Source: a virus. From it: a stretch of DNA of 30,819 bases. Position 1 is the first letter of the stretch. The number at the start of each line of letters is the position of its first letter. The notes under the pieces were generated by a model. That model had not been told where the DNA came from. It saw only the letters and a list, made by a program, of their open reading frames with translations, and made no database searches. The position numbers and the translations under genes were made by a program. Shown piece by piece: positions 9,790 through 30,784 of this stretch. The stretch spans positions 1 to 30,819 of IMG/VR virus record IMGVR_UViG_3300035659_000847; one strand, written 5' to 3'.

Positions 9790-10916
9790 CCAAAGCACCC
9801 AACGGCACCAACGGCAACGGCACACACGAGCTGACGGATGCCGACGACCTCGACCCCAACAAGGGGCCAAACATGATCGTCCCGCCACCGCTCGATCCCA
9901 ACCGCATCAGCATGTTCACCGATCCGACCGTCAAGCGGCTCGACGACATCTTGTTGACGACCTTTGACGCTCACGGCATGGAACGCATGGGCGGTGCCTC
10001 AGGGCGCGGCTGGAGCAGCCACGCAACGTTCCAGCGCTGTCCGTACCTGTTCAAGCTCAGCTATCTCGACGGCCACCGTGGCGCGCCGGCACGTGCGCTC
10101 GAAACCGGATCGGCGTTCCACACGTACCTCGCGCTCCACTATCTGTGGATGCTCAACGAGAACTTGACGCTCACACCGTACGTCGCCCGTGACGCGATGA
10201 TGGACGGCGGCGGTGATGCCGTCGCTATCCTCGAAGCCTGGCGGCTGTACGAAGCCTACGCGAACAAGTACGAGAACGACTACCTCACGCCGATCGCAAT
10301 GGAGCAGTGGGCTCAGGATCCCGACGGCAACACGTGCCGTTTCGACTTGATCGCCGAGGTTCGCGAGGCCACTCCCGGCGTCGTCCCCGGCGTGTACATC
10401 GTCGAGCACAAGTCTGCCGCACGGTTCACTGCCGATGTTCTCGACGGCTGGCGGAACGACGGTGAAATCCTCGGCCAGATCATGATCTGGAAGCGCGCCA
10501 AACTCGACAAGAAGTACGGCAAGCTCCGCGGCACCATCGTCAACATCGTCGGCAAGCAGAAGACGATCCAGTTCCATCGGACGATCGTTCCCGCGCAGAG
10601 GTGGCACGTCCAACAGCACATGGAGGACCTCAAGATGTGGTCCGCGCTGCAGCAGATGTACGCTGCCACGGGCGTCTGGCCAAAGGCGCGCGCGAACTGC
10701 GTGACCAAGTTCGGCATGTGCAGTTTTTTTGATAACTGCGCTGAGAATCAGAAACTCGTGCCTATTCGCAAGCGTGAGTGGGCACCGCAAACCAAGCCGA
10801 CGATCGCGGCCGCGACTGAATCGCAAGAGGGACTTGCGGATGGCGCTGCGATCGGGCAAACGTCTCGCGCTGCCGCGTCGTCAGATGACAACGTAACGAC
10901 AACCGAAGAGAGCTAA
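9786..10916 (+). CDS. RecB/Cas4-like PD-(D/E)XK nuclease, probable Fe-S
   Basis: The 376-residue protein has the motif order of RecB/Cas4-type nucleases: C85 in FQRCPYLF, GSAFHTYL (108-115, with H112), CRFDLIAEV with D187, the catalytic YIVEHKSA (E207, K209), and a Q-I-M-I-W motif at 231. C-terminal C305, C312 and C318, with C85, form the four-Cys pattern that holds a 4Fe-4S cluster in Cas4/AddB-like nucleases. It probably resects or trims DNA ends for recombination. ATG at 9786 overlaps the helicase stop (ATGA). The first 70 residues are low complexity and the last 50 are disordered. It is followed closely by a Sak4-like ATPase, a common phage recombination pairing. Confidence 0.88.
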   Translation: MTKAPNGTNGNGTHELTDADDLDPNKGPNMIVPPPLDPNRISMFTDPTVKRLDDILLTTFDAHGMERMGGASGRGWSSHATFQRCPYLFKLSYLDGHRGAPARALETGSAFHTYLALHYLWMLNENLTLTPYVARDAMMDGGGDAVAILEAWRLYEAYANKYENDYLTPIAMEQWAQDPDGNTCRFDLIAEVREATPGVVPGVYIVEHKSAARFTADVLDGWRNDGEILGQIMIWKRAKLDKKYGKLRGTIVNIVGKQKTIQFHRTIVPAQRWHVQQHMEDLKMWSALQQMYAATGVWPKARANCVTKFGMCSFFDNCAENQKLVPIRKREWAPQTKPTIAAATESQEGLADGAAIGQTSRAAASSDDNVTTTEES

Positions 10917-12430: not shown

Positions 12431-12450
12431 TCGCGGTTGTTGCTCAACAC

Positions 12451-12469
12451 CGAGTGCAACGTGCACTCG
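12451..12469. promoter_or_regulatory. Hairpin in RNR leader
   Basis: Perfect 8-bp stem CGAGTGCA / TGCACTCG with a 3-base ACG loop, between the first hairpin and the RNR start. No known riboswitch consensus is recognised. Confidence 0.45.
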
Positions 12470-12525
12470 GGCAGGCCAGCTACCTGCTACCGCGGCCGAT
12501 CTCGATCGTCGACGTTCAACCCCCG

Positions 12526-12540
12526 TGTACGGAGCGTACA
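12526..12540 (+). promoter_or_regulatory. Hairpin presenting the RNR ribosome binding site
   Basis: TGTACG / CGTACA stem around a GAG loop; the GGAG at 12531-12534 is the only ribosome-binding-like sequence before the ATG at 12548, 13 bases away. Folding could modulate initiation. Confidence 0.4.
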
Positions 12541-12547
12541 AACACCA

Positions 12548-15500
12548 ATGATCGAACCCGTGCTGACTGAAATTTCCCAGAGTGTACTCGCCAAGCGATA
12601 CCTCATCCGCAACGCCAGCCAAGAAGTCATCGAAACCCCCAAGGCGCTCTTTCAGCGTGTCGCTGATTTTCTCGCAACGGCTGAAGCACCTGGCGAGCGC
12701 GAGAAGTGGGCGGCGATCTTCTACCGGATGATGGCCGCGCGTGAGTTCGAGCCGAACACGCCGTGCCTTGTCAACGCAGGTCGTCCCGACGGCACCGGCC
12801 AGCTCAGTGCGTGCTTCGTGTTGCCGGTGCCCGATTCGATGGACGGGATCTTCAGCGCGATCCGCAACATGGCGCTCGTGCAGAAGACTGGCGGCGGTAC
12901 AGGCTTCAGCTTCAGCCGGCTACGGCCCGAGGGTGACTTCGTCTCGACGACGTCGGGTGTCGCGTCCGGTCCGATCTCGTTCATGGAAGTCTTCGACTTC
13001 GCGACCGAGCGGATCAAGCAGGGCGGTGTTCGGCGCGGCGCGAACATGGGCATCCTGCGCATCGATCACCCGGACATCATGAAGTTCATCGCCCTCAAGC
13101 AGGGCGACACGAACAAGATGCAGAACTTCAACGTGTCGGTGGCGATCACCGATGCCTTCATGCTCGCGCTTGAAGCCGGCAAGGACTTCGACCTGATTCA
13201 CCCCGTCAACGGCAACGTCGTTGCGCAGCTTCACGCGCCGACGGTATGGAAGGAGATCGTCCGCTGCGCCCACAAGATCGGCGACCCCGGGTTGTGGTTC
13301 GTTGATCGCGTGAACGCTGCTGACGCGTTGTCGGAGGCGCTCGGCCCGATCGAGGCGCCGAACCCGTGCCAGCCCGCATGGGCCACGGTGCTCACGCCCG
13401 ATGGCATTCGCACGTTCGCCGACATCGATGTTGGCTCGACGATCTGGAGCGGTCAGCGCTGGACGAAGGTGACCAAGAAGGTCGCGACCGGCGTGAAGCC
13501 CGTCCATGCCTATCGGACGCGCGCAGGTACGTTCTACGGCACCGAGAACCACCGCGTCATGCAGAACGGTCACAAGATCGAAGTACGCGCTGCGGACGCG
13601 ATCGACACGGTCGTCGGGCCGGTCTGCGAACGTCGCGGATACGGGCTCAGTGACGTTGTCGATGGGCTCGTGCTCGGTGACGGCTCGTATCACAAAGCGA
13701 GTGGTCGGGTGTTCCTCTGTGCCGGGCCGGACGACATCAAGGCGTACAACCAGGATCCAATCGCGAGCCAAGACCTGATCGGTGAGCACCGTCCGGGTGT
13801 CAAGGACACGTACTACGAGGTCGAGACGTCGTTCAAGACGCTGCCGCTCACCTACAACCGCGTCGTCCCCGACAAGTATCGCTACGGCGACGCCATCAAG
13901 GTTGCAGGGTTCCTGCGCGGGCTCTATTCCGCGAACGGGTCCGTCGTCGGCAACCGCGTCACACTGAAAGCCGCGTCGTTCGCCGTGATCGAGGCCGTCC
14001 AAGAGATGCTGTCGTCGATCGGCATCGCCTCGTACTACACGACCAACAAAGCGCACGACATCGAGCATCACAACGGCGTGTACACGTCGCGTGAGAGCTA
14101 CGATCTCAACATCGGCAACGTGGAGGGTCGTGCGCGCTTCGCCGATCTGATCGGCTTCATCCACGCACACAAGAACGAACGGCTCGCAGCGAGTCTCGAC
14201 GTTGACGGTCGGCGCGCGCCGAAGGTCACGTACGACATCGCCGACATCGAGTACATCGGTGATGAGCCGGTCTTCGACATCACCGTCGACGCCGACGAGC
14301 ACACGTACTGGACCGGCGGCATGCTCGTTTCGAATTGTGGCGAGGTCGGCCTACGTCCATTCGACGCGTGCTGCCTCGGATCCGTCAACCTCGCCGAGTT
14401 CTTCGTCGAGAAAGAGGGCAACACCGCACACAAGCACGGCAACGTCGTGATGCGGCACGGCTCGATCGACTTCGATCGGTTGCAACGTACCGTGCAACAC
14501 AGCGTCCGTTTCCTCGACAACATGTTGACGGTCAACAAGTACCCGATCCCAGAGATCCACGACGTCACGTCGAAGTGCCGCAAGATCGGCCTGGGCGTCA
14601 TGGGTTGGGCAGACCTACTCGTGCAGCTGGGCATCCCGTACAACTCGCCCGAAGCACGTGAGCTGGGCTCCCACGTGATGAAGCTCGTCAACACGTGGGC
14701 CGCCGACGCCAGCGAGAAGCTCGCGGAGGCACGTGGACCGTTCCATCACTGGCCTGTGTCGAAGTGGGCCAAGCTCGGGCACAAGCCGCGTCGTAACGCG
14801 ACGACGACGGTCATTGCGCCGACTGGCACGATCAGCATCATCGCGGGCTGTAGCAGCGGCATCGAGCCATTGTACGGGCTGTCGATGACGCGCGATCAGG
14901 CGGGCATGACGATGCTCGAAGTGAACCCGCTCGTCGAGAAGATCGCCAGGCGCGAAGGCTTCTGGTCCGATCAGCTCGCCGAGACGGTTCGCCAGAGCGG
15001 GTCGCTGGCTGACGCTCCCGGCGTACCCGATCACTGGCGCGCAGTGTTCGCGATCGCCAACGAGCTGAGCATGGAAGATCACGTCGGGATGCAGTCGGTC
15101 TTCCAGGCACACACCGAGGATGCTGTCAGCAAGACGATCAACCTGAAGAACGACGCAACCGAGGCTGACATCGAGCGCGCGTACATGCTGGCGTGGACGA
15201 AGGGGTGCAAGGGCATCACCGTCTACCGCGACGGCTGTCGTTCCGGTCAGGTCCTGACGGCCGGTGTCGTCGCCAAGCCTGACGCTGTTGTTGCCCCTGT
15301 CGCGTCTGTTACTGCAACCACCAAGCGCCGTGTACCTGCCGATGGCCGGCGTTCGGGTGTGACCCTCAGCCGCTCCACGCCGTACGGCAGCGTCCACATG
15401 ACGATCAACCACCACCCCAGCGACGGCGATCCGTTCGAGCTGTTCGTGCGCGTCGGCAAGTCGGGCTCCGAGGTCATGGCGTGGGCCGAAGCGTTCGGTC

Positions 15501-15901
15501 GCGTGGTCAGCTACACGCTCGCGCTGCCGTCACCGTTCTCGCCGCAAGCACGCCTCGAAGAGGTCGCGCGGCAGCTCAGCAACATCGGCGGCGGCGACGT
15601 CTGGGCGGTTGGCATGGAGCGCGTCGTGTCTGCACCTGATGCAATCGCCAAGATGCTGCTGTCGCACCTAGGTATCAACGAGAGCTTCAACTACAGCGTC
15701 GACGCGCCCCCGACTGCGCACGCACCGACGCCTGTGCTCGCACCCGTCGTCAGTGCTGGCACCGTCAACGCTGCCTCGAACGGCCACGTTCGGCCCAAGT
15801 CCAAGTCGCTGAGCGATCTGTGCCCGGCGTGCGGCAAGGCGGCGTTCATCTACCAGCAGCGGTGCGGGCTGTGCACGAACTGTGGACATTCCAAATGTTG
15901 A
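12548..15901 (+). CDS. nrdJ: Class II (cobalamin-dependent) ribonucleotide reductase with intein
   Basis: The precursor of 1117 residues would splice to about 794. It fits vitamin B12-dependent RNR (NrdJ), which reduces ribonucleotides without oxygen or a separate radical subunit. N-terminal LAKRYLIRNASQEVIETP and FEPNTPCLVNAGRP are typical, followed by the redox Cys in GQLSACFVLP (about C89). NP|CGE, with the radical-site Cys, is split by the intein. After it come LRPFDACCLGSVNLAEF, TTTVIAPTGTISIIAG and TKGCKGITVYRDGC. Near the C-terminus are a TSCPD domain (VHMTINHHPS to about residue 1020) and a zinc ribbon, LCPACG...CGLCTNCGHSKC. ATG at 12548 is chosen because homologous sequence begins there; an in-frame extension to 12437 runs through leader hairpins. 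No class I small subunit is seen. Confidence 0.92.
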   Translation: MIEPVLTEISQSVLAKRYLIRNASQEVIETPKALFQRVADFLATAEAPGEREKWAAIFYRMMAAREFEPNTPCLVNAGRPDGTGQLSACFVLPVPDSMDGIFSAIRNMALVQKTGGGTGFSFSRLRPEGDFVSTTSGVASGPISFMEVFDFATERIKQGGVRRGANMGILRIDHPDIMKFIALKQGDTNKMQNFNVSVAITDAFMLALEAGKDFDLIHPVNGNVVAQLHAPTVWKEIVRCAHKIGDPGLWFVDRVNAADALSEALGPIEAPNPCQPAWATVLTPDGIRTFADIDVGSTIWSGQRWTKVTKKVATGVKPVHAYRTRAGTFYGTENHRVMQNGHKIEVRAADAIDTVVGPVCERRGYGLSDVVDGLVLGDGSYHKASGRVFLCAGPDDIKAYNQDPIASQDLIGEHRPGVKDTYYEVETSFKTLPLTYNRVVPDKYRYGDAIKVAGFLRGLYSANGSVVGNRVTLKAASFAVIEAVQEMLSSIGIASYYTTNKAHDIEHHNGVYTSRESYDLNIGNVEGRARFADLIGFIHAHKNERLAASLDVDGRRAPKVTYDIADIEYIGDEPVFDITVDADEHTYWTGGMLVSNCGEVGLRPFDACCLGSVNLAEFFVEKEGNTAHKHGNVVMRHGSIDFDRLQRTVQHSVRFLDNMLTVNKYPIPEIHDVTSKCRKIGLGVMGWADLLVQLGIPYNSPEARELGSHVMKLVNTWAADASEKLAEARGPFHHWPVSKWAKLGHKPRRNATTTVIAPTGTISIIAGCSSGIEPLYGLSMTRDQAGMTMLEVNPLVEKIARREGFWSDQLAETVRQSGSLADAPGVPDHWRAVFAIANELSMEDHVGMQSVFQAHTEDAVSKTINLKNDATEADIERAYMLAWTKGCKGITVYRDGCRSGQVLTAGVVAKPDAVVAPVASVTATTKRRVPADGRRSGVTLSRSTPYGSVHMTINHHPSDGDPFELFVRVGKSGSEVMAWAEAFGRVVSYTLALPSPFSPQARLEEVARQLSNIGGGDVWAVGMERVVSAPDAIAKMLLSHLGINESFNYSVDAPPTAHAPTPVLAPVVSAGTVNAASNGHVRPKSKSLSDLCPACGKAAFIYQQRCGLCTNCGHSKC
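13367..14335 (+). mobile_element. LAGLIDADG intein at RNR active site
   Basis: In-frame intein of 323 residues, inserted in the NP|CGE catalytic motif. It starts with Cys (CQPAWATVLTPDG) and ends LVSN before Cys, so the penultimate residue is Ser instead of His. Block B is GTENHRV. Endonuclease motifs are LVLGDGSY and GLYSANGSV; the second has Asn where the catalytic Asp is expected, so the endonuclease may be impaired. Block F (FDITVDADEHTYWTGGM) resembles other RNR inteins. Confidence 0.93.
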
Positions 15902-15966: not shown

Positions 15967-17649
15967 ATGACCCGAGAGCCATCACTAGGAACCGACTGCG
16001 CGATCGACGTCGACAAGCTCATCGAGTCGCGCTTGCTCATCCAGGCCAACTCTGGCGGCGGTAAGAGCTGGGCGATTCGTCGCCTGCTCGAACAGACGTA
16101 CGGCCGCGTCCAGCAGATCCTCATCGACGTCGACGGCGAGTTCCACACGCTGCGCGAGAAGTTCGACTATGTGCTCGCCGGGCAGAAGAATGGCGACTGC
16201 CCCGCGGACATCAAGAGCGCGGCGTTGTTGGCGCATCGGCTGCTGGAGCTGAACGTCAGCACGATCATCGACATCTACGAGTTGGGCTCGCAGAAGAAGC
16301 TGTTCGTCAAGCGCTTCCTCGACGCGCTCGTGTCCGCACCGCGCGAGCTGTGGCACCCGGTGCTGGTCGTCATCGATGAGGCCCACATCTTCGCGCCCGA
16401 GGCCGGTCAGGCCGAGAGTGCCTCAGCCGTCATCGACCTGATGACGCTCGGGCGCAAGCGCGGGTTCTGCGGCGTGCTCGCGACGCAGCGGATCTCGAAG
16501 CTCCACAAGGACGCCGCCGCCGAGTGCAACAACAAGCTGATCGGTCGGAGCGCACTCGACATCGACATGAAGCGCGCCGCCAGCGAGCTTGGCTTCACGA
16601 CCCGCGAGGACACGCACTCGCTGCGCGCACTCAAGGCGGGCGAGTTCTACGCGTTCGGCCCAGCAATCTCGAACGAGGTCCGGCTGATCAAGGTCGGGCC
16701 GGTCAAGACGACGCACCTCAAGGCAGGCCAGCGTGCGGCCCCGCCCACGCCCCCAAGTGACAAGGTCAAGAAAGTCTTGGCGCAGCTGGCCAACCTGCCG
16801 CACGAAGCCGAGGAAGAAGCCAAGACGGTCGCTGAGCTACGGCTACAGGTCCGGCAACTCCAGGGCGAGCTGAAGAAGGCCAAGGCGATGCCACCAGCCC
16901 CGAAAGTCGACGTGAAGACCGAGAAGCTCATGCGCGACATGCAGCTCGATCAGACCAAGCGGCTCGAAAAGCTCGTCGGTGGCGCAGAAGCGCTCAACGA
17001 ACGGCTCATCGCGCAGCTCGACACGTTCACGTCGACCGCACGCGAACTCCGCTCCAGCGTACTCAGCGCGCAAACACTGTCGCGGTCGAACGGCGTGCGG
17101 CCGATTGATCCGGTGCTCAAGGGCACAGCACAGGCGTTACGCGCCCGTGAACGTTCCGTGCCGCGCGTGGTTACCGAAACCGACGGCGCGTTGCCCATCG
17201 GTGAAGCTGCGACGCTACGCGCGCTGATCCAGTACCCGGACGGTCTGCGCCGCGATCAGCTGACCGTCCTGACCGGCTACAAGCGTTCGACGCGCGATGC
17301 GTACATCGCGCGACTGCGTGAGAAGGGCTTCGTCGACACGATCGGCGAGCGTGTGACAGCGACTGACGCCGGCCGTGACGCCGTGCCCGACGCCGAGCCG
17401 TTGCCGACGGGTGAAGCCCTGCGCGACTTCTGGTTCGGCAAGCTGCCGAGCGGCGAGAAGCAGGTGCTCCAGCAGCTCGTCGAGGCGTACCCGGACGCGA
17501 TCGAGAAGCCTGCCATCGACGACGCCACAGGCTTCAAGCGCTCGACGCGCGACGCGTACCTGTCCCGCCTGGCCGCCAAGGAACTCATCGTCGATGTCGG
17601 GCGCGGCGCCGTGAAGGCCAGCGCGACGTTGTTCGAGGTCGACGCGTGA
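15967..17649 (+). CDS. HerA/FtsK-type ATPase with coiled coil and tandem winged helices
   Basis: The 560-residue protein has a HerA/FtsK-superfamily ATPase: Walker A QANSGGGKSW (26-35), a second motif LIDVDGEFHTL, Walker B VLVVIDEAHIFAP (132-144), and LATQRISKLH (171-180), all typical of HerA/VirB4-like DNA translocases. A Glu/Lys/Leu-rich coiled coil spans about 275-375. The C-terminus holds two winged-helix-like repeats sharing the phrase KRSTRDAY (about 438-445 and 519-526). Candidate roles are DNA translocation during end processing, conjugation-like transfer or packaging; the neighbours favour replication or recombination. GGGAGG lies 8 bases before the ATG. Its TGA overlaps the polymerase GTG. 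Confidence 0.82.
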   Translation: MTREPSLGTDCAIDVDKLIESRLLIQANSGGGKSWAIRRLLEQTYGRVQQILIDVDGEFHTLREKFDYVLAGQKNGDCPADIKSAALLAHRLLELNVSTIIDIYELGSQKKLFVKRFLDALVSAPRELWHPVLVVIDEAHIFAPEAGQAESASAVIDLMTLGRKRGFCGVLATQRISKLHKDAAAECNNKLIGRSALDIDMKRAASELGFTTREDTHSLRALKAGEFYAFGPAISNEVRLIKVGPVKTTHLKAGQRAAPPTPPSDKVKKVLAQLANLPHEAEEEAKTVAELRLQVRQLQGELKKAKAMPPAPKVDVKTEKLMRDMQLDQTKRLEKLVGGAEALNERLIAQLDTFTSTARELRSSVLSAQTLSRSNGVRPIDPVLKGTAQALRARERSVPRVVTETDGALPIGEAATLRALIQYPDGLRRDQLTVLTGYKRSTRDAYIARLREKGFVDTIGERVTATDAGRDAVPDAEPLPTGEALRDFWFGKLPSGEKQVLQQLVEAYPDAIEKPAIDDATGFKRSTRDAYLSRLAAKELIVDVGRGAVKASATLFEVDA

Positions 17650-24503: not shown

Positions 24504-24751
24504 CCAAATTTGCCAACAAGACGTTCTCGTCGCCGCCCAACAGCAAAGCGTACCGCGACAACTGGGACGCCGTGTTCGGCGACGAGAAGAACGCCTACGA
24601 AGCTCTTGCAGCGAAACTAGACAGCCCGCTCATTGCTGAAGACCTGACTTGCGCGCACTGCGGCGGTCCACGGCAACCGAATCCACCCTGGCCGCGAGGG
24701 TTCTGCCGCATCGAATGCGAGCGCGCGTTCTACCGCGCCCTCGGAGACTAG
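24500..24751 (+). CDS. Small zinc-finger protein
   Basis: GTG at 24500 overlaps the previous TGA. The 83-residue product has CAHCGG followed after about 15 residues by CRIEC, giving a treble-clef-like four-Cys site. Function unknown. It is the last rightward gene before the oppositely oriented endonuclease, with which its stop shares CTAG. Confidence 0.65.
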   Translation: MTKFANKTFSSPPNSKAYRDNWDAVFGDEKNAYEALAAKLDSPLIAEDLTCAHCGGPRQPNPPWPRGFCRIECERAFYRALGD

Positions 24752-25461
24752 CGGCGTTGGCGATCCTGTCGTAGCCACCAGAAGCTCGTCACACTGTCGA
24801 GCGACGCCGGATTGACGATTCCTCGTGACGCTGCTTGCCGGGTACCGTCTTCAGACAGATCGAACAGCGTCGCCAACTCGCGATACCCGTACGACCATCG
24901 ACTGCGGCGTGTGGATCGAATGTGGACGTCGGCCGGCACCGCAAGGTTGTCCGGGTGGTTGTTCCACGTATTCTGGTCGACGTGCTCGACAGCGCCTGAG
25001 CCGATCACACCGAAGATCACGCAGCAGATCGGTGTGTACTCGCGACCCGTCCAGAGCACGAAGTGGTCGTCGATGATCTTTGCGAACGGCTGGAACGACC
25101 CGCCGTGAGGTGTGCAGAGCCCCGGTTCCATCATCGTGGCCAGGCAGCCTGGGTAACCGCAGCGGTACAGATCAAACCGTGGCCAGCGTCCTCGCCACTC
25201 CTTCAATGTCGCCGTACCCGTAAGCACCTGGACGGCTTCGTCGTCGGTGAGTTTCTGCGAACGGCGCGTCAACGCCTCGGTGATGTACAGCGCGGCCGCG
25301 CGCGCATCGGTTGACGTTCGCAGTTTCGAGCGTGTCGTCGACGGAGCCTCAACGGCCGCTACCGCGAGATCATCGAACGTGAACAGTCGACTGGGACCCC
25401 GTTCACGGTGCCGGTGCTTGAACACCTTGCGCGGATTTTCGCGTGGTTTGAGGGCTGGCAT
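24748..25461 (-). CDS. HNH homing-endonuclease-like protein
   Basis: The 237-residue protein carries an HNH/NUMOD-type nuclease region: AVEHVDQNTWNNHPDNLAVP (157-176) with H160, N168 and N172 as in phage HNH_3 homing enzymes. Upstream is a Cys/His site (C101, C106, C116, H119) likely to hold zinc. The C-terminus (RELATLFDLSEDGTRQAASRG) looks like a DNA-recognition helix-turn-helix. It lies on the opposite strand within otherwise rightward genes and overlaps the preceding gene tail to tail by 4 bases, as expected for a free-standing mobile endonuclease. The N-terminal 20 residues are basic. No intron or intein remnants are evident at its edges. Confidence 0.75.
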   Translation of the reverse strand: MPALKPRENPRKVFKHRHRERGPSRLFTFDDLAVAAVEAPSTTRSKLRTSTDARAAALYITEALTRRSQKLTDDEAVQVLTGTATLKEWRGRWPRFDLYRCGYPGCLATMMEPGLCTPHGGSFQPFAKIIDDHFVLWTGREYTPICCVIFGVIGSGAVEHVDQNTWNNHPDNLAVPADVHIRSTRRSRWSYGYRELATLFDLSEDGTRQAASRGIVNPASLDSVTSFWWLRQDRQRR

Positions 25462-25514: not shown

Positions 25515-25637
25515 ATGACGACGATCGCGGCAGCGATCATCTTGACGTCGGCGATCGCTCGTGGGATCTTCTTTAGCGAAACACCCATCGAGAAGGCGTC
25601 GCCGACTTGGGGGATCAACTTCCAGAAAGAAGAATGA
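25515..25637 (+). CDS. 40-residue putative membrane or signal peptide-like protein
   Basis: ATG at 25515 follows TTAGGGG by 9 bases. The product (begins MTTIAAAIILTSAIARGIFF) has a hydrophobic N-terminal segment and a polar tail ending NFQKEE. It could be a single-pass membrane peptide. Its TGA overlaps the ATG of the next gene, so the two are coupled. No homology recognised. Confidence 0.5.
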   Translation: MTTIAAAIILTSAIARGIFFSETPIEKASPTWGINFQKEE

Positions 25638-25834
25638 ACATGGAAACCGCAACTCTGGGCGACGGTCTCGGCAAGCGTCGTCGCCGTCGTCGCAAGCACA
25701 TGGGCGCGCTGCCCACCCTCGTCGGTCGTCGTCGCCGCAAGGGCGCACGGAAGGGTCGCAAGATCTGCATCCGTACGGCCGCCGGCAAGAAGGCCTGCGG
25801 CGTCCGCTGGCGCAAGCGCTCGAAGAAGCGCTAG
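25634..25834 (+). CDS. Arg/Lys-rich small basic protein, nucleoid-like
   Basis: The 66-residue product has nearly half of its residues as Arg or Lys, in blocks such as KRRRRRRKH, RRRRKGARKGRK and RWRKRSKKR, with two Cys about 10 apart (KICIRTAAGKKACG). Such composition points to binding of DNA or RNA, as in DNA-condensing proteins, but no specific family is recognised. ATG at 25634 overlaps the previous stop; AGAAAGAAG serves as ribosome binding site. It is followed by two hairpins, so it may end a transcript. Confidence 0.65.
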   Translation: MNMETATLGDGLGKRRRRRRKHMGALPTLVGRRRRKGARKGRKICIRTAAGKKACGVRWRKRSKKR

Positions 25835-25836
25835 CT

Positions 25837-25854
25837 CTAGCGCGCGAGCGCTAG
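25837..25854. terminator. GC-rich hairpin, copy of the 12413 element
   Basis: Stem CTAGCGC / GCGCTAG with GCGA loop, 2 bases after the stop. Identical stem and near-identical loop (GTGA) to the element after the DUF669 gene at 12413-12430. Confidence 0.5.
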
Positions 25855-25863
25855 TTCCAGGTG

Positions 25864-25896
25864 AAGGCCACGTGCGATAGCATCGTACGTGGCCTT
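25864..25896 (+). terminator. Strong hairpin, likely terminator
   Basis: AAGGCCACGT pairs perfectly with ACGTGGCCTT; inside it a G-U pair and CGAT/ATCG extend the stem to 15 pairs around a 3-base AGC loop. The following TGTGCTT is only modestly T rich. It separates the 66-residue gene from the next cassette and lies 35 bases before the next start. Confidence 0.6.
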
Positions 25897-25931
25897 TGTG
25901 CTTCCAGTGCTGGTAGTAGAAGGAGACGACG

Positions 25932-26243
25932 ATGGCTCGACGAAAAAAGACGCGTTGCAAGCTGAAGGGCGGATGCTCCTACGGGCCCCGTACCCGCAAG
26001 CGCAAGCAACTCGGCGTCAAGCACACGACGCAGCGTGAACTGCTCGCGCAGTACGCGCGCGACGCCGGTCTCTTCGTCGCGTCGTGGTCGCCAGGCGATG
26101 GCGTCACGCGCTATCGGTTCTTCGACAAGCCGGGCAACACCTACTTCGGCCCGCAGAACGGCATCTGCACGGAACTCGGCCTGAAGAAGGCTTGGAAGTT
26201 CCTGCAGACCGGCACGTGCTCGGTCACGCGGAGGCGGCGTTAG
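25932..26243 (+). CDS. Small basic Cys protein (cassette member B)
   Basis: 103 residues, strongly basic at both ends (MARRKKTRCKLKGGC and SVTRRRR), with four Cys. The middle (RELLAQYARDAGLFVASWSP and RYRFFDKPG) looks like a folded alpha/beta core followed by a helix ending in Cys (LKKAWKFLQTGTC). The ribosome binding site AAGGAG lies 8 bases before the ATG. Its stop directly abuts the next ATG. Function unknown. Confidence 0.68.
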   Translation: MARRKKTRCKLKGGCSYGPRTRKRKQLGVKHTTQRELLAQYARDAGLFVASWSPGDGVTRYRFFDKPGNTYFGPQNGICTELGLKKAWKFLQTGTCSVTRRRR

Positions 26244-26495
26244 ATGGCGACCTACCGTCTCAAGGTCTGGGTCGGACCCGTCAACGTCGTCGAGTGGGGC
26301 CGCAAGCTGCGCCGCGCCGGCCTGCGCGTTCCGACGACCGGCACCGAGCATCTCTACGTCGACGTCAAGGCCGAGAAGCAGCACGGCTGTGCCGGCGCCG
26401 AGCACAACATGCGCGCGGCGCTCATGCGCAAGTACAAGAAGGACTGGCGGCTTCATGCCAGCTCGTGTCAGCTGCGCGCAAAGAGGCAGCGCTGA
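26244..26495 (+). CDS. Small basic protein (cassette member C)
   Basis: 83 residues starting immediately after the previous TAG, with no spacer. The N-terminus, TYRLKVWVGPVNVVEWGRKL, and then EHLYVDVKAE suggest a small alpha/beta fold. His/Cys residues (QHGCAGAEH) and a basic tail (CQLRAKRQR) follow. No family is recognised. It is probably cotranslated with its neighbours. Confidence 0.65.
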   Translation: MATYRLKVWVGPVNVVEWGRKLRRAGLRVPTTGTEHLYVDVKAEKQHGCAGAEHNMRAALMRKYKKDWRLHASSCQLRAKRQR

Positions 26496-26497
26496 TC

Positions 26498-26731
26498 ATG
26501 GCGCGTCGTCTGACCTTCGAGGATCTGCCCGTTGGCGCGTGCTTCGCGTTCGAAGTCGCGTCGCCCGTGGCGACGCGTCGCAAGGTCGACACGCACCGCA
26601 CCGTCATCATCCCCGGCGGCAAGCGTCCGCTGGTCGTGCACGAGATCGACACGCCTGTCGTGACGAAGGCGTGCCCCACAAGTTTCGGACGGCGTCGTAA
26701 GCGCCGCAGCACCCAGAAGAGGAGCCGCTGA
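26498..26731 (+). CDS. Small basic protein (cassette member D)
   Basis: 77 residues beginning MARRLTFEDLPVGACFAFEV. The F-x-DL-x-x-G-x-x-F pattern recalls a common type of small phage beta-barrel protein, usually of unknown function. The tail FGRRRKRRSTQKRSR is highly basic. ATG lies 2 bases after the preceding TGA, in the repeated TGATCATGGC junction. Confidence 0.65.
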   Translation: MARRLTFEDLPVGACFAFEVASPVATRRKVDTHRTVIIPGGKRPLVVHEIDTPVVTKACPTSFGRRRKRRSTQKRSR

Positions 26732-26733
26732 TC

Positions 26734-27120
26734 ATGGCGAAGAAACCTTCCATCAACGCTGAGATCGATGCCGCCCAGCGTGCTTACGCGATGGCTGTCG
26801 ATCGCGGTGATCAACGCGAGAAGCGCCTACAGCAGCAGCGCATTACGCGCTTGATGAAGCGCCGTCGAAGAGGCGCGTTCGGTTCGTCCGATCGCTTCGT
26901 CGTCAGCGGCCCTGCGCACTGGAAGCGCAGCTTCCATGACTCGGAGTCTGCCGCGCTCGCGGCGGGGCACAAGTGTTCCAAGCAGTTCCCGAACGCGATC
27001 TGCAAGGTCACGCACGGGCTACCGGGGATGCAGAAGACCATCGCCGAGTGCAACCGCAACGAGTGCTATCGCGTTGCGGGCCTCGGCAAGCGCAAGCGCC
27101 GTCGGAAGGCGCGGAGGTAG
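26734..27120 (+). CDS. Small basic Cys protein (cassette member E)
   Basis: 128 residues: a helical, charged N-terminal half (AQRAYAMAVDRGDQREKRLQ, then RLMKRRRRGAF) and a C-terminal half with four Cys (HKCSKQF, AICKV, AECNRNECYR). It ends GLGKRKRRRKARR. The phrase SFHDSESAALAAGHKC resembles parts of members G, I and K. Junction TGATCATGGC precedes the start. Confidence 0.65.
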   Translation: MAKKPSINAEIDAAQRAYAMAVDRGDQREKRLQQQRITRLMKRRRRGAFGSSDRFVVSGPAHWKRSFHDSESAALAAGHKCSKQFPNAICKVTHGLPGMQKTIAECNRNECYRVAGLGKRKRRRKARR

Positions 27121-27122
27121 TC

Positions 27123-27440
27123 ATGGCGAAACGACGCAAGAGCCTCGGCAGCTCCCCTGCGATCCACACGCAGCAGGCCGCCAAAGCATCCGACGACATC
27201 CAGTACGCTGCCGTGCTGACGACCAACAAGGCGCGCAACGGGCGATGCACGGCCGCGACGGTGGCTTACGCCGAGATGCAGCAGGCAATCGGTCGCTTCG
27301 ACGCGCACAACCGCTCGGGCGGCAAGGCCTGGAAGCCGCAGTCGGCGATCACCCTCGCCGCGGACGCGTACAACCAGCATTGCGTGCGCGAGAGCGCGAC
27401 GGTCAGCGGCCGTCGTCGCCGCCGAAAGGCACGGCGCTAG
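27123..27440 (+). CDS. Small basic protein (cassette member F)
   Basis: 105 residues with a basic N-terminus (MAKRRKSLG), a helical middle (AAKASDDIQYAAVL, VAYAEMQQAIGRF) and the same kind of tail as member E (GRRRRRKARR). Two Cys. The start follows the repeated junction TAGTCATGGCG. No family is recognised. Confidence 0.65.
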   Translation: MAKRRKSLGSSPAIHTQQAAKASDDIQYAAVLTTNKARNGRCTAATVAYAEMQQAIGRFDAHNRSGGKAWKPQSAITLAADAYNQHCVRESATVSGRRRRRKARR

Positions 27441-27442
27441 TC

Positions 27443-27772
27443 ATGGCGAAAGCACTCCGCAGCGCAGCACGTGATCGTTACCGGCATCGCGCCGTGCGCG
27501 ACAAGCTGACAACTGCGCTCAAAGCATCGGCGCGCCGTGCCAGGCTACCCAAGAACGCCGTGCGTGTGAGCGTCGCAGGACCGCTCCTGGTGACCAACAA
27601 CGGCAAGTGCTCAGCCGCGGTCGTCCATTCGCTCAAGGGCGGCCAGTTCGCGGTGCAGCCGCGCTTCGGCGTGCATCGCGATCGCAAGCTCTACAAGACG
27701 CCCAAGGCCGCAGCAACGGCTGCCACGAAGCTCGTGAAGCAGTGCCGCATCGACCTCAAGAGGAGTCGCTAG
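27443..27772 (+). CDS. Small basic Cys protein (cassette member G)
   Basis: 109 residues. A very basic N-terminal helix region (ALRSAARDRYRHRAVRDKL) precedes strands (VRVSVAGPLLVT). The segment LYKTPKAAATAATKLVKQC then resembles TTPAEAVKQANAAC in the 29396 gene. It ends CRIDLKRSR. The start follows TAGTCATGGCG. No family is recognised. Confidence 0.65.
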   Translation: MAKALRSAARDRYRHRAVRDKLTTALKASARRARLPKNAVRVSVAGPLLVTNNGKCSAAVVHSLKGGQFAVQPRFGVHRDRKLYKTPKAAATAATKLVKQCRIDLKRSR

Positions 27773-27774
27773 TC

Positions 27775-28032
27775 ATGGCCGCACGCTACAAGCCCACGCC
27801 ACGGTCGATCTGCAAGGTAGGTACCGTTGCGCACAACCGTTCGTTCACGGCACACGAACTGCGTGAGTACGTGCAGGTCGCGGACCGCAAGCAGATGTTA
27901 CGCTGGCTCAAGCGTCACAAGTTGATCGCATGGGCGGCGACAGGTGGCCCCGGTCCCGAGCGCTACCACCCGACGGCGAAAGGCCGACGCATGATCGAGA
28001 AAGCGTGTCGCAGCGCGAAAGCTCAGAGGTAA
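27775..28032 (+). CDS. Small winged-helix-like protein (cassette member H)
   Basis: 85 residues. SFTAHELREYVQVADRKQMLRW followed by LKRHKLIAWAAT and YHPTAKGRRMIEKA has the pattern of a winged helix: helix-turn-helix, then a wing, then a T-x-K/x-G helix as in many small DNA-binding regulators. A basic tail ends AKAQR. The start follows TAGTCATGGCC, the same junction as its neighbours. It could regulate the cassette or bind DNA structurally. Confidence 0.68.
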   Translation: MAARYKPTPRSICKVGTVAHNRSFTAHELREYVQVADRKQMLRWLKRHKLIAWAATGGPGPERYHPTAKGRRMIEKACRSAKAQR

Positions 28033-28034
28033 CC

Positions 28035-29384
28035 ATGGCCGCCATCATCCCGCATCTCGAAGTCACTGAAGACATCACGCCGATCGAGCGCGCCTACGAC
28101 ATGTGCGTCGGTTCGCTAGACGGTGACGAGTTCGGTGAAGATCATCCTGCGTGTCCTGCACCACAGGCTGTTCTCTCCGACGCGCATGCCGGCCTGCTTG
28201 GGCTGGTCTTCGTGCGCGAGGCCGTGTTCGAGAGCTTGCAGGACCTGCAGTTCACCGTGCACCCCGGCAACATCAAGGACAAGGACACCAGGAACGTCTA
28301 CCTCGTTCTCGATCGGCCAATCGGTCCCGGTCCCGCATGGAATCCAGCGACGGATCCCAACGTCCAACAGTACAAGCTCCTGTCATGGACATCGAAGATG
28401 AACGCCCCGAGCTGGAGCATCCCCGCAGGCGCGCCCCAGATCGGTGGTGCATGCCCCGGTGCCATCGCGGGACAGTCGATCGCACCGCCCGGAGATCGCA
28501 GAGCGAATGCGCGGTTGGTCAACATCGGCCTCAAGCGTCCGCAGAGCACGCCCGTCAATCTCGCGCTGGCGATCTGCGAGCAGTGCTACGCGACCGGCGG
28601 GCAGTACTCGACGGGTCAGGTCCAGTTCGCTCAGACGCTGCGTTACTTGTGGGTGCGTCAAGCGATCGACTTCGAAGTACCTGCACCTGACGGTAGTCGG
28701 TCAACCGCGTTCATCGAGACGATGGTCTACGCGATCAACAACGTCGACTACCTGCTCAATGGCGGCACCGTCAAAGAGGAGCAGGCCATCACCAACCCCG
28801 AGACGGGTGAGATCACGATCGTCGAACAGGTGCAACCACTGCCACCTGAGCCAACAGGTCGACGGTTCTTCCGCATCCATGACTCAGGAGATTTCTTCAG
28901 CCCAAAGTACCTGAAGCAGTGGAAGCAGATCGCAGATCGGCTACCGGACATCACGTTCTGGGCGCCGTCGCGGATCTGGGCCACGAGCTGGGGCATTGAT
29001 CTTGTCAATGAGATCAATGCGCCGCACGCGCGCAGCGCCAACAACCTGATCATCCGTCCAAGCGCGTACGAAGTGAACGCAGCTGGTCCGGAGAATCTCG
29101 GTCCCGGTTGGGCAGGTGCGACGACGGTTCTGCAAGTCGAACAGAACCTCGGCATGGAACCCGAGCTGGAGCAGTACGTCTACGATCGCGCGAAGCGGTT
29201 CCCGCCGAAGATGACCGGCCCCGACCTGCGCTACACGTGGAACTGTCAGGCGTACGCGACGGACGACAAGGGCCACACGTGCCGCAAAGCTGTTGCCCCG
29301 CCGGGTCTCGGTGGACCTGACGGCAAAGGCTGTCGCGCGTGCTGGATCGCCCCGAACGAGATCGTCAACTACTCGTTGCACTGA
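28035..29384 (+). CDS. GP88-family phage protein
   Basis: The 449-residue protein matches the phage GP88 family. Signatures are SWSIPAGAPQIGGACPGA (126-143), the LAICEQCYA Cys pair (C181, C184), RIHDSGDFFSPKYLKQW (280-296), and IADRLPDITFWAPSR. The C-terminus has C404, C416 and CRAC (C433, C436). Family members are usually shorter; here a Glu/Pro-rich insert (about 215-275) and an N-terminal extension of over 100 residues are added. The Cys pattern suggests a metal or Fe-S site, but the family's biochemical role is not established. ATG at 28035 lies 2 bases after the previous stop in a run of coupled genes. It is the only large protein in the cassette. Confidence 0.8.
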   Translation: MAAIIPHLEVTEDITPIERAYDMCVGSLDGDEFGEDHPACPAPQAVLSDAHAGLLGLVFVREAVFESLQDLQFTVHPGNIKDKDTRNVYLVLDRPIGPGPAWNPATDPNVQQYKLLSWTSKMNAPSWSIPAGAPQIGGACPGAIAGQSIAPPGDRRANARLVNIGLKRPQSTPVNLALAICEQCYATGGQYSTGQVQFAQTLRYLWVRQAIDFEVPAPDGSRSTAFIETMVYAINNVDYLLNGGTVKEEQAITNPETGEITIVEQVQPLPPEPTGRRFFRIHDSGDFFSPKYLKQWKQIADRLPDITFWAPSRIWATSWGIDLVNEINAPHARSANNLIIRPSAYEVNAAGPENLGPGWAGATTVLQVEQNLGMEPELEQYVYDRAKRFPPKMTGPDLRYTWNCQAYATDDKGHTCRKAVAPPGLGGPDGKGCRACWIAPNEIVNYSLH

Positions 29385-29395
29385 AGGAGTCCACC

Positions 29396-29974
29396 GTGGC
29401 GAAAGAAAAGAAAACCCCCAAGGCAAAGCTCGATACGTCCAGCGTGCCGTGTCTGCGCGTCGTCGTTGGTGGCAAGCCCGGCAAGACAGGTCAGACCGAC
29501 GCCAAGGCCTGTGCGATCGTCGGCGAACGCCGTGGCGGGGAAGGCGGTTGGGATCTCGCGCGGGAGTACCGTTCGACGAGCAAGACCGTCGACGCTGTCG
29601 ACGGCAAGAACTGCGGCGAGACTATCGTCAAGTCGGGCAAGGACAAGGGCAAGAAGAAGATCAAGAAGTGCCCCAAGCCGTGCGCAGGCGCGCTCAAGCG
29701 CAAGGGCTGCCCCGTACAGCTCGCGTTCGATCAGGGTCAGCCGTTCTTACGGTTCTGTACCACCGAGAAACAGGCAGGCTTTCGCGTCGACGTGACTACC
29801 CCGGCCGAAGCAGTCAAGCAGGCCAACGCGGCGTGTGCGGTTTGGCGCCGTGACGGTCACGCCGTCCCCGTGCCACCAAAGAAGGGCAAGCCGCAGCCCG
29901 ACCGCTGGGTGGGCAGCTTCGCGAAGCACTTTCCACTCGATACGCCGCTGCGCGGCGGCAGCCGTAGCAAGTAA
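29396..29974 (+). CDS. Lys/Cys-rich basic protein (cassette member I)
   Basis: 192 residues with a GTG start and AAGGAG 8 bases upstream. It has eight Cys (19, 39, 73, 92, 96, 105, 121, 147), including KCPKPCAG, and Lys-rich stretches (KSGKDKGKKKIKKC). A segment FCTTEKQAGFRVDVTTPAEA then a helix to AACAVW resembles other cassette members. No family is recognised. It could be a zinc- or nucleic-acid-binding protein. Confidence 0.65.
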   Translation: MAKEKKTPKAKLDTSSVPCLRVVVGGKPGKTGQTDAKACAIVGERRGGEGGWDLAREYRSTSKTVDAVDGKNCGETIVKSGKDKGKKKIKKCPKPCAGALKRKGCPVQLAFDQGQPFLRFCTTEKQAGFRVDVTTPAEAVKQANAACAVWRRDGHAVPVPPKKGKPQPDRWVGSFAKHFPLDTPLRGGSRSK

Positions 29975-29975
29975 C

Positions 29976-29991
29976 GATCGCGTCCGCGATC
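29976..29991. terminator. Palindromic hairpin after member I
   Basis: GATCGCG / CGCGATC arms around TC, 1 base after the stop codon. It is a short GC stem without a T-run, similar in placement to the hairpins at 12413, 25837 and 30769. Confidence 0.45.
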
Positions 29992-30025
29992 ATGGTACGT
30001 TAGAGCACCCGAGGAGCCGACCCCA

Positions 30026-30460
30026 ATGCCCCATGTCTTCACACTCGAAGGTCCGGACCTCAGCGCGATGCCGACGTTCTCGTACCCGCCAGCTGGCTCG
30101 CCGCTCGCGCCAAGTCAGTCGATCGTTGGACCCACGCGTGTCGCGACCATGGTGTTCGGTCCCGGCGGCACGCCCGTCATGTACCGGCGGCGGTTTCCCG
30201 CGCGGGGTCCCGTCTGTGACTACTGCGACCCGAACTACTTCACCGTCGCCGATGGAGGCCAGCAAATGATCCCATACCAACGTCAGCAGTTCGGTGACGC
30301 AACCGACTTCCTGGACAAGCAGACGCCGCTCGTGGCGGGCTTGATGATCCTCGGCGGCGCACTCGCAACGGGCATCGTGCTCGCAGCTGGTGGCGTCTGG
30401 CTGTACCGTCGCTCGGGTGAGCCGAAGCGCGCAACCGACGCGATGGACTCGGACTGGTAG
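30026..30460 (+). CDS. Single-pass membrane protein, hypothetical
   Basis: 144 residues. A proline-rich N-terminus is followed by a CDYC pair (64-67) and one hydrophobic segment, LVAGLMILGGALATGIVLAA (102-121), with Arg-Arg after it (YRRS). The acidic tail ends DSDW. The orientation of charges suggests the N-terminus is outside and the tail in the cytoplasm. GAGGAG precedes the ATG. It could be virion or host-membrane associated; no family is recognised. Confidence 0.65.
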   Translation: MPHVFTLEGPDLSAMPTFSYPPAGSPLAPSQSIVGPTRVATMVFGPGGTPVMYRRRFPARGPVCDYCDPNYFTVADGGQQMIPYQRQQFGDATDFLDKQTPLVAGLMILGGALATGIVLAAGGVWLYRRSGEPKRATDAMDSDW

Positions 30461-30464
30461 CGTC

Positions 30465-30770
30465 GTGGCGCGCAACGCCGGCCACATCTCGCTGATCATC
30501 AAGGGGCCACGTAAGAGCGCGACGCGCGCGGCTCAACGTCACGGCCTCAACCTGTCGTCGTGTCGCGACGTCGGCTCACGTGCCGGTGCAGGTGAAGCAC
30601 AGTGCTACACGCCGTGTACGCCGTCCACGAACAAGAAGATCGTCGAATGGTTTTCGGAGCGCTCACGTTTGAAGGCCGCACGCGGGTTCCCGCCGGGGAC
30701 GCTGCTTTACCACGGCGCGTTCTGCGAGACGAAGAACCTTGGCAAGCGCGCGCACAAGCGCCGTCGTTGA
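30465..30770 (+). CDS. Small basic Cys protein (cassette member K)
   Basis: 101 residues with GTG at 30465, 4 bases after the previous stop. The N-terminus HISLIIKGPRKSATRAAQRHG then LNLSSC has a strand-helix-Cys pattern like other cassette members. Further Cys lie in CYTPC and FCETK, and the tail is GKRAHKRRR. No family is recognised. Confidence 0.6.
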   Translation: MARNAGHISLIIKGPRKSATRAAQRHGLNLSSCRDVGSRAGAGEAQCYTPCTPSTNKKIVEWFSERSRLKAARGFPPGTLLYHGAFCETKNLGKRAHKRRR

Positions 30771-30784
30771 TCGCGCGCGCGATC
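30769..30784. terminator. Perfect 16-bp palindrome at end of member K
   Basis: GATCGCGCGCGCGATC overlaps the last two bases of the TGA stop. It can fold as a hairpin or serve as a protein site. It contains two GATC sites. The final 35 bases of the window hold no recognisable feature. Confidence 0.5.

Follow-up and report, generated by a model that had tools for sequence, protein, structure and literature searches.

A conserved cassette of small basic proteins with even cysteine numbers around a GP88 gene in a large unclassified virus

Small, Arg-rich core proteins are encoded by double-stranded DNA (dsDNA) viruses such as adenoviruses (VII and mu) and baculoviruses (P6.9), and adenovirus precursors are cut by the viral protease at glycine-containing sites. 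The DNA-binding proteins of chlorovirus virions are likewise basic and dsDNA-virus encoded. According to PMC3281028, PBCV-1 virions contain basic DNA-binding proteins; phage DNA is thought there to be neutralised mainly by ions and polyamines, and chromatin-like packing with proteins is a feature described from viruses of eukaryotes. T4 and phiKZ-like giant phages such as SPN3US (PMC10052503) have internal head proteins (of the inner body, or ejected) that are packaged with the DNA, and many are cleaved in maturation. Here, these systems are compared with a cassette of ten small basic genes around a GP88 gene in a viral DNA stretch of 30,819 bases (IMG/VR virus record IMGVR_UViG_3300035659_000847), referred to as the window. 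The cassette resembles the adenovirus, baculovirus and chlorovirus proteins in being small, basic and dsDNA-virus encoded, and those of adenoviruses and baculoviruses also in Arg content, and a location on the packaged DNA is proposed here as well. It differs from all three in its variety of small domains, where they use one or two proteins, in its paired cysteines and in its assignment to a bacterial virus. Its mode of action would be like theirs, but because no sequence relation was found, it is not filed under these core families. T4 and phiKZ-like phages are tailed and have recognisable head and tail genes, none of which is recognised by Pfam in G003, a relative of the window virus. The cleavage motif of their head proteins differs from the [L/F]G motif described below.

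The cassette is supported as a conserved gene set with traits shared beyond chance, namely basic C-terminal tails, even cysteine numbers and [L/F]G junctions. Its role is proposed tentatively, at a little less than even confidence: the genes may encode a late, co-translated set of virion core proteins, small and protamine-like, in a bacterial virus that is large and unclassified. Within this reading we infer late expression, location in the particle, DNA binding, disulphides and cleavage. A typical member would be a tiny cysteine-paired domain with Arg/Lys-rich tracts, often attached via an [L/F]G hinge. The tracts would bind and neutralise packaged DNA, and disulphides formed by the cysteine pairs would keep the proteins stable in the particle. 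Related viruses would exchange or lose domains and tails, since a specific fold counts for less than charge and packing. Among the functions raised by a first-pass annotation of the window (DNA condensation in the capsid, host nucleoid takeover, and an RNA-binding or anti-defence set), condensation appears to fit best, since the traits are common to membrane-anchored, virion-like proteins.

Tails, cysteines and junctions of the cassette proteins

An open reading frame (ORF) starts at each of the ten positions at which the first-pass annotation had placed a small gene, and the high Arg/Lys content that it reported holds for all ten proteins, which have net charges of +12 to +25 and 20-41% Lys or Arg (K/R). 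Its basic C-terminal tails need qualification. With a strong tail defined as at least six K/R in the last 12 residues, five of the ten proteins qualify (25634, 26498, 26734, 27123 and 30465), and the other five have 3-5 K/R; the sequence RRRRRKARR, attributed to two neighbours, is exact in 27123, and 26734 ends in RKRRRKARR. Strong tails are far commoner than in per-protein shuffles, occurring in 19/351 proteins of G003 against 2.3 expected and in 30/358 proteins of G006 against 2.5 expected, with a maximum of seven over 200 shuffles in each contig. The window has six tails among 36 gene calls (0.7 expected).

The gene junctions are near-identical in part. Exactly two bases separate the stop codon from the ATG at six consecutive junctions from 26495/26498 to 28032/28035 (stretch 26496-28034, plus strand), TC five times and CC once; the genes meeting at 26243/26244 abut, and the remaining junctions of the cassette differ. 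One alternative is a chance collection, in which unrelated small genes of one operon look alike because GC-rich phage ORFs are rich in Arg and ribosome-binding sites overlap gene ends. Tail codons of an upstream gene can indeed contain the ribosome-binding site of the next gene. In tailed genes, 15% of the Arg codons among the final four codons are AGG, as opposed to 1-2% of those further upstream and of those in long genes, so that part of the tail is dual-coded. However, genes with a distant same-strand neighbour downstream have tails about as often (23/352) as genes whose neighbour lies within 12 bases (26/357). The tail is therefore mainly a protein feature, and an origin as a by-product of ribosome-binding sites is rejected as the whole cause while staying a part cause for the last few codons. 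The absence of a detected shared fold and the weakness of the motif with one member per family, both described below, speak for a chance collection, whereas the excess of tails over shuffles of the same proteins, cysteine parity and the shared [L/F]G junctions speak against it, and we consider it decidedly improbable, the least probable of the explanations discussed here.

Cysteines in the ten small proteins number 2, 4, 2, 2, 4, 2, 2, 2, 8 and 4 in gene order. The upper end of the one to eight reported earlier is reached, but the count is always even and never one. Parity extends to the relatives, with even counts in 45 of 46 members from 13 families, compared with 184 even and 198 odd among other G003 and G006 proteins of 45-200 residues with at least one cysteine, a set that may still include a few cassette members called with other starts. 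Twelve of the 13 families are even throughout (binomial p 0.0017); the exception is g2, whose copy in L001 has three cysteines and is the sole odd count. The cysteines are invariant in aligned g12 and g4, and six are invariant in five aligned g10 sequences; the window and L004 copies have two more in an insert. In GP88, all nine cysteines are invariant in six aligned sequences. A thioredoxin-like protein with a CxxC motif (PF00085, E 1.6e-7) is found in the virion-like block of G003 and matches nine loci besides the query's own, including G006 and loci of the wider group. The paired cysteines suggest that disulphides are formed.

In several families, basic tracts meet domains at a short [L/F]G-type motif: SLG-SS, NLG-SS or AFG-SS follows an N-terminal basic tract, and GLG, GMG or GVG precedes a C-terminal tail. 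Counted in all 46 members, there are 19 GLG motifs (2.1 expected), nine LG[SD]S (0.13 expected) and 17 G[LMV]G[KR] (1.4 expected). Because the members are related, these counts are weaker when one member per family is used, when G[LMV]G[KR] occurs four times against 0.31 expected, a value reached by 0/1000 shuffles. A domain termed X is attached to g6 in L001 and to g12 in L004, with GLG at the joint both times; the two copies are 71% identical, and the domain is free-standing in G003.

Families, relatives and gene content

None of the ten small proteins reaches a Pfam family cut-off, and the nine scanned with PHROGs (all except 25634) have no match better than E 0.07; a series of distinct known families, which the first-pass annotation had set against the idea of a common system, was thus not found. 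By profile score, GP88 is the sole cassette protein with a known family. It is encoded at 28035-29384 (plus strand; 449 residues, nine Cys) and matches PF17338 with 64 bits against a cut-off of 24.4 (E 2.4e-17). It is a member of the same family as GP88 of mycobacteriophages, but shares only about 26% identity with those copies over about 30% of the protein. The GP88 orthologue of L001 (8001-10475) is an open frame of 824 residues, in which an intein-like insert splits the match to the window protein into one part for residues 1-409 and another for 403-449.

Profiles of the 13 families, which are shallow and three of which are single sequences, were compared in 78 pairs. Among the best 14 pairs, the top two (probability 78 and 43) are stretches of 27 and 14 columns that include the basic tail or Arg run, and longer alignments have a probability of 17 or less. 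One shared cassette fold was thus not detected in this comparison of shallow families. Of the common system proposed earlier, the conserved cassette with shared tails, even cysteines and [L/F]G junctions stands, and a common fold is not supported. The AlphaFold2 model of g12 has a beta-alpha-beta-beta-alpha-beta order with a predicted local distance difference test score (pLDDT) of 75.6 and a predicted template-modelling score (pTM) of 0.64, so that a ferredoxin-like fold is plausible. It matches ACT-, PII- and ribosomal-type chains at Z 5-6, although values below 8 may reflect a mere common arrangement; Foldseek gives no match at E 0.001, and the g12 and g10 profiles find no solved relative below E 0.18.

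These matches bear on the possibility that the cassette is an RNA- or ribosome-binding set, in which small basic domains like those of ribosomal proteins, with disordered tails, would redirect translation. Matches of the g12 model at Z 5.3-5.7 include ribosome-derived chains, presumably S6, and one chain from a NusB-S10 complex; domain X resembles KOW/SH3 by eye, and the genes are tightly coupled. However, the low Z values and the Foldseek result just given stand against a true relation, and paired cysteines are not typical of ribosomal proteins. This explanation is quite improbable.

The GP88 query retrieved six related viral contigs of 48-221 kb (L001-L006), with GP88 identities to the window of 98% over the first 409 residues in L001 and 74-78% in L002-L006; matches of L004 and L006 are identical to each other. 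Matches in two further contigs (138 and 121 kb) were retrieved with g12, and single-protein searches with g10 and g4 gave two loci and none, respectively. Among 50,697 phage records, g1, g10 and g12 have no match, and no paper describing this cassette was recognised in a literature search. Four related contigs were read in pieces, and genes of relatives were called by our own script, not a published caller; it recovers all ten small genes of the window.

All genes of the cassette lie on the plus strand. A short ORF of 40 residues (25515-25637), whose status is uncertain, overlaps the start of the first basic gene; a similar stretch precedes the g1 orthologue in L002 (MTTIADAI..) and L005 (MTAIADAI..). 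The g1 protein (25634-25834; 66 residues, net +25, 2 Cys) is protamine-like, with GDGLG before its Arg run; it has matches in L001-L006 and two cysteines in all six members compared (window, L001-L005). Among L001-L006, g2 (25932-26243; 103 residues, net +20, 4 Cys) is matched only in L001, and g3 (26244-26495; 83 residues, net +13, 2 Cys) is 98% identical in L001, 38% in L002 and 50% in L004/L006. The g4 protein (26498-26731; 77 residues, net +12, two invariant Cys, basic tail) is present in L001-L006. The g5 protein (26734-27120; 128 residues, net +22, 4 Cys), present in L001, L002, L004/L006 and L005, runs from a basic tract through FG-SS, a Cys domain and GLG to a basic tail. The g6 protein (27123-27440; 105 residues, net +15, 2 Cys), with SLG-SS near its N-terminus and the RRRRRKARR tail, is present in L001, where it is fused to domain X, and in L004/L006 and L005. 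For g7 (27443-27772; 109 residues, net +24, 2 Cys), the only match is the window's own locus (L007), with no relative in the loci examined for cassette members. The g8 protein (27775-28032; 85 residues, net +15, 2 Cys) is 78% identical in L001; it looks winged-helix-like by eye and has a weak PHROGs excisionase match (E 0.13). GP88 is followed by g10 (29396-29974; 192 residues, net +23, 8 Cys), present in L001-L006. Within the stretch marked as a basic cassette by the first-pass annotation, g11 (30026-30460; 144 residues) is a membrane protein and not basic; it starts with MPHVFTLEG, is present in L001-L006 and has a C-terminal hydrophobic segment, as does its orthologue in G003. The last gene, g12 (30465-30770; 101 residues, net +16), has four invariant Cys by alignment and NLG before its basic tail, and occurs in two copies in G005 and G006.

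Five genes, g1, g4, GP88, g10 and g11, are thus kept in all six relatives; the remaining members turn over, and some relatives hold cassette members that are not in the window. The ratio of nonsynonymous to synonymous change (pN/pS) is below 1 in 33/33 comparisons of small basic members (median 0.48, range 0 to 0.88) and 0.25-0.29 in three comparisons of GP88, so that the small genes are coding and their proteins evolve about twice as fast as GP88 yet are constrained. Both the variable gene content and the roughly doubled pN/pS would fit an early host-takeover or anti-defence set, in which fast-changing small basic proteins would have the host nucleoid, RNA polymerase or defence proteins as binding targets, and so would the replication genes, methylase and HNH gene that precede the cassette. 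However, cysteine parity and the viral thioredoxin-like gene point to oxidised, particle-bound proteins, tails and motif are common to membrane-anchored proteins, and the g11 membrane protein directly after the cassette is followed in relatives by virion-like genes. A takeover set is unlikely, though it deserves more weight than an RNA-binding set or a chance collection, and the core-protein reading is placed ahead of all three.

The genes encoded before the cassette comprise a Prim-Pol primase, ThyX, an intein-bearing protein, an SNF2 helicase, a nuclease, Sak4-like and SSB-like proteins, an intein-bearing ribonucleotide reductase, a HerA-like ATPase, a DNA polymerase, a helicase, a thymidylate kinase and a DNA methylase. 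Homing-endonuclease-type domains (inteins) are found at 4305-7061 and 12437-15901, the latter inside the ribonucleotide reductase, and the PHROGs matches of the SNF2 gene (7579-9789) look intein-derived. The HNH-type gene (24748-25461, minus strand) lies just before the cassette, a position kept in L002, L003 and L005. Downstream of the cassette, tandem paralogues of 110-135 residues with KAG.LLWNR near the start are found in G003 (26447-27545), with copies in other relatives, and the 33.5-104 kb region of G003 encodes two phage-integrase-family proteins and one protein with a peptide-release-factor (RF-1) domain.

The [L/F]G motif in membrane-anchored proteins and the virion-like block

The [L/F]G motif is not confined to the cassette. 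Membrane-anchored proteins were defined as clusters of proteins with a C-terminal hydrophobic segment, which replaced hand-chosen blocks, and [FL]G was used as a plain pattern; a refined version with a third residue was chosen after inspection. In four contigs, [FL]G occurs within residues 5-24 in 15/34 such clusters against 44/328 others (p 4.6e-5), and in 6/34 of the same clusters in a control window. Repeating the test on 14 loci from further viruses that encode the capsid candidate described below, where a few N-termini had already been looked at, gave 18/39 against 32/188 (p 1.8e-4; control window 9/39). In one membrane family, the leaders from nine of these loci vary in length and sequence yet end at LG, directly before a conserved [LIMF][IV]P.[WY]Q[FY] start. 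Double glycine at the N-terminus is no commoner than in the control window (6/34 in both). The [L/F]G site common to cassette and membrane-anchored proteins probably has a role in maturation or targeting; it may be cleaved, or it may serve in targeting.

Peptidase_C39 exceeds its Pfam cut-off in 5/6 contigs (E 1.5e-14 to 4.2e-18; G003 30823-31926, G005 36842-37432 and G001 10312-10911 among them). The protein has the Q, C, H and D residues expected of an active enzyme, as read by eye, together with a C-terminal hydrophobic segment and a basic tail. In five relatives, its gene has the same orientation as GP88 and lies about 4-9 kb past it; the contig of the sixth stops about 1.7 kb past GP88. 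Among solved structures, the best match is the double-glycine leader protease 6mpz (E 1.7e-4). It resembles such leader peptidases in these catalytic residues but differs from them in being membrane-anchored and viral and in that the shared motif is [L/F]G, not GG. C39 as the general [L/F]G protease is weakened: it is found in 1/13 capsid-candidate contigs searched, which may be fragments, and the motif recurs in 14 loci, 12 of them in contigs without a C39 match and two (L060 and L061) outside the C39 search. C39 thus cannot be the sole enzyme, if the site is cut at all. Another candidate protease for [L/F]G is a conserved membrane protein of the capsid-candidate block (G003 139656-140459) with a transglutaminase-like domain (Pfam E 1.1e-4, just under the cut-off) and matches in 9/14 other loci.

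The capsid candidate is a protein of 249 residues that is 90% identical between G003 and G006, the most alike among G003 proteins of at least 150 residues or with a hydrophobic segment; its candidacy comes from conservation and neighbourhood. It occurs at 16 loci in viral contigs of 39-221 kb, at one locus in the chromosome of a Gemmatimonadota metagenome-assembled genome (MAG) and at one in an Actinomycetes MAG contig, with no match among the 50,697 phage records. Gemmatimonadota and Actinomycetes are tentative candidates for the host. Its model is all-beta, but the pLDDT of 42 makes it too poor to use and its structure search meaningless (best Foldseek E 0.52). It has a conserved neighbour of 178 residues. 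Many proteins in its neighbourhood have a C-terminal hydrophobic segment, several have basic tails, and several relatives encode a small basic protein with four cysteines about 1 kb from the capsid candidate. We hypothesise that this neighbourhood is the virion module of an unusual, possibly tailless, membrane-containing virus. The Gemmatimonadota MAG chromosome CP070815.1 (about 3.66-3.72 Mb; L060, L078-L085) holds relatives of about twenty virion-block and accessory genes over about 60 kb, some sequence pieces containing runs of N, and is perhaps an integrated relative of these viruses.

A Pfam scan of 172 of the 188 G003 proteins of at least 125 residues (99 + 73; the other 16 lie in the replication end) listed no terminase, portal, capsid or tail family at E 1e-4, although profiles may miss divergent genes. 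Among the PHROGs matches listed, which for a scan of 99 proteins cover 25 of 48 families, there are weak labels of this kind: 'terminase' for the HerA-like window protein, 'portal' overlapping a NUDIX domain, 'collagen like minor tail' for a fibre-like protein and one 'pilot protein' match. No match to phrog_2, a terminase family, was found in any of five contigs. In the first 50 kb of the 197-kb virus Rctr197k, a terminase-like gene and a head-morphogenesis gene are annotated, so that such genes are recognisable in other poorly known large viruses. The HerA-like protein (window 15967-17649) matches DUF87/HerA (E 1.7e-10) and HerA helicases; it is present in 5/6 cassette relatives but in 1/13 capsid-candidate contigs, and is thus not clearly the packaging motor.

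Weight of the core-protein reading and its meaning

Several points weigh against protamine-like core proteins. No DNA-binding family is recognised among the members, and the introduction of PMC3281028 states that there is no evidence of basic proteins contributing much to the neutralisation of phage DNA. With one member per family, GLG occurs three times against 0.51 expected, a value reached by 14/1000 shuffles, and the loose pattern [GASN][LFMV]G is not significant (81/1000). For the N-terminal motif, the first test, made on blocks chosen by hand, gave a significant result in G003 but failed in G006 (14 against 10.4; 75/500 shuffles). Rapid turnover is also the pattern of takeover or anti-defence genes. 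Furthermore, 13 loci of the wider capsid-candidate group (about 10-17 kb each) have 0 or 1 strong tail each, so that such viruses may manage without tails.

A bolder version of the core-protein reading is rather improbable. It would describe a lineage of bacterial viruses up to about 220 kb that is tailless and membrane-containing, with the DNA packed in a chromatin-like core whose protamine-like proteins are locked by disulphides and interchangeable as a kit. The common [L/F]G site of core and membrane proteins would be cut by a viral cysteine peptidase, setting free the basic peptides and the mature domains in the manner of adenovirus or pox-like maturation.

Protamine-type packing is familiar from animal and algal viruses, not from phages. 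If the core-protein reading is true, about ten protamine-like, cysteine-paired proteins would extend chromatin-like packing to bacterial viruses and would provide a direct test case. The [L/F]G motif in core-type and membrane-anchored proteins, found in contigs of about 40-220 kb, offers a testable handle, through cleavage or targeting, on this virus group.

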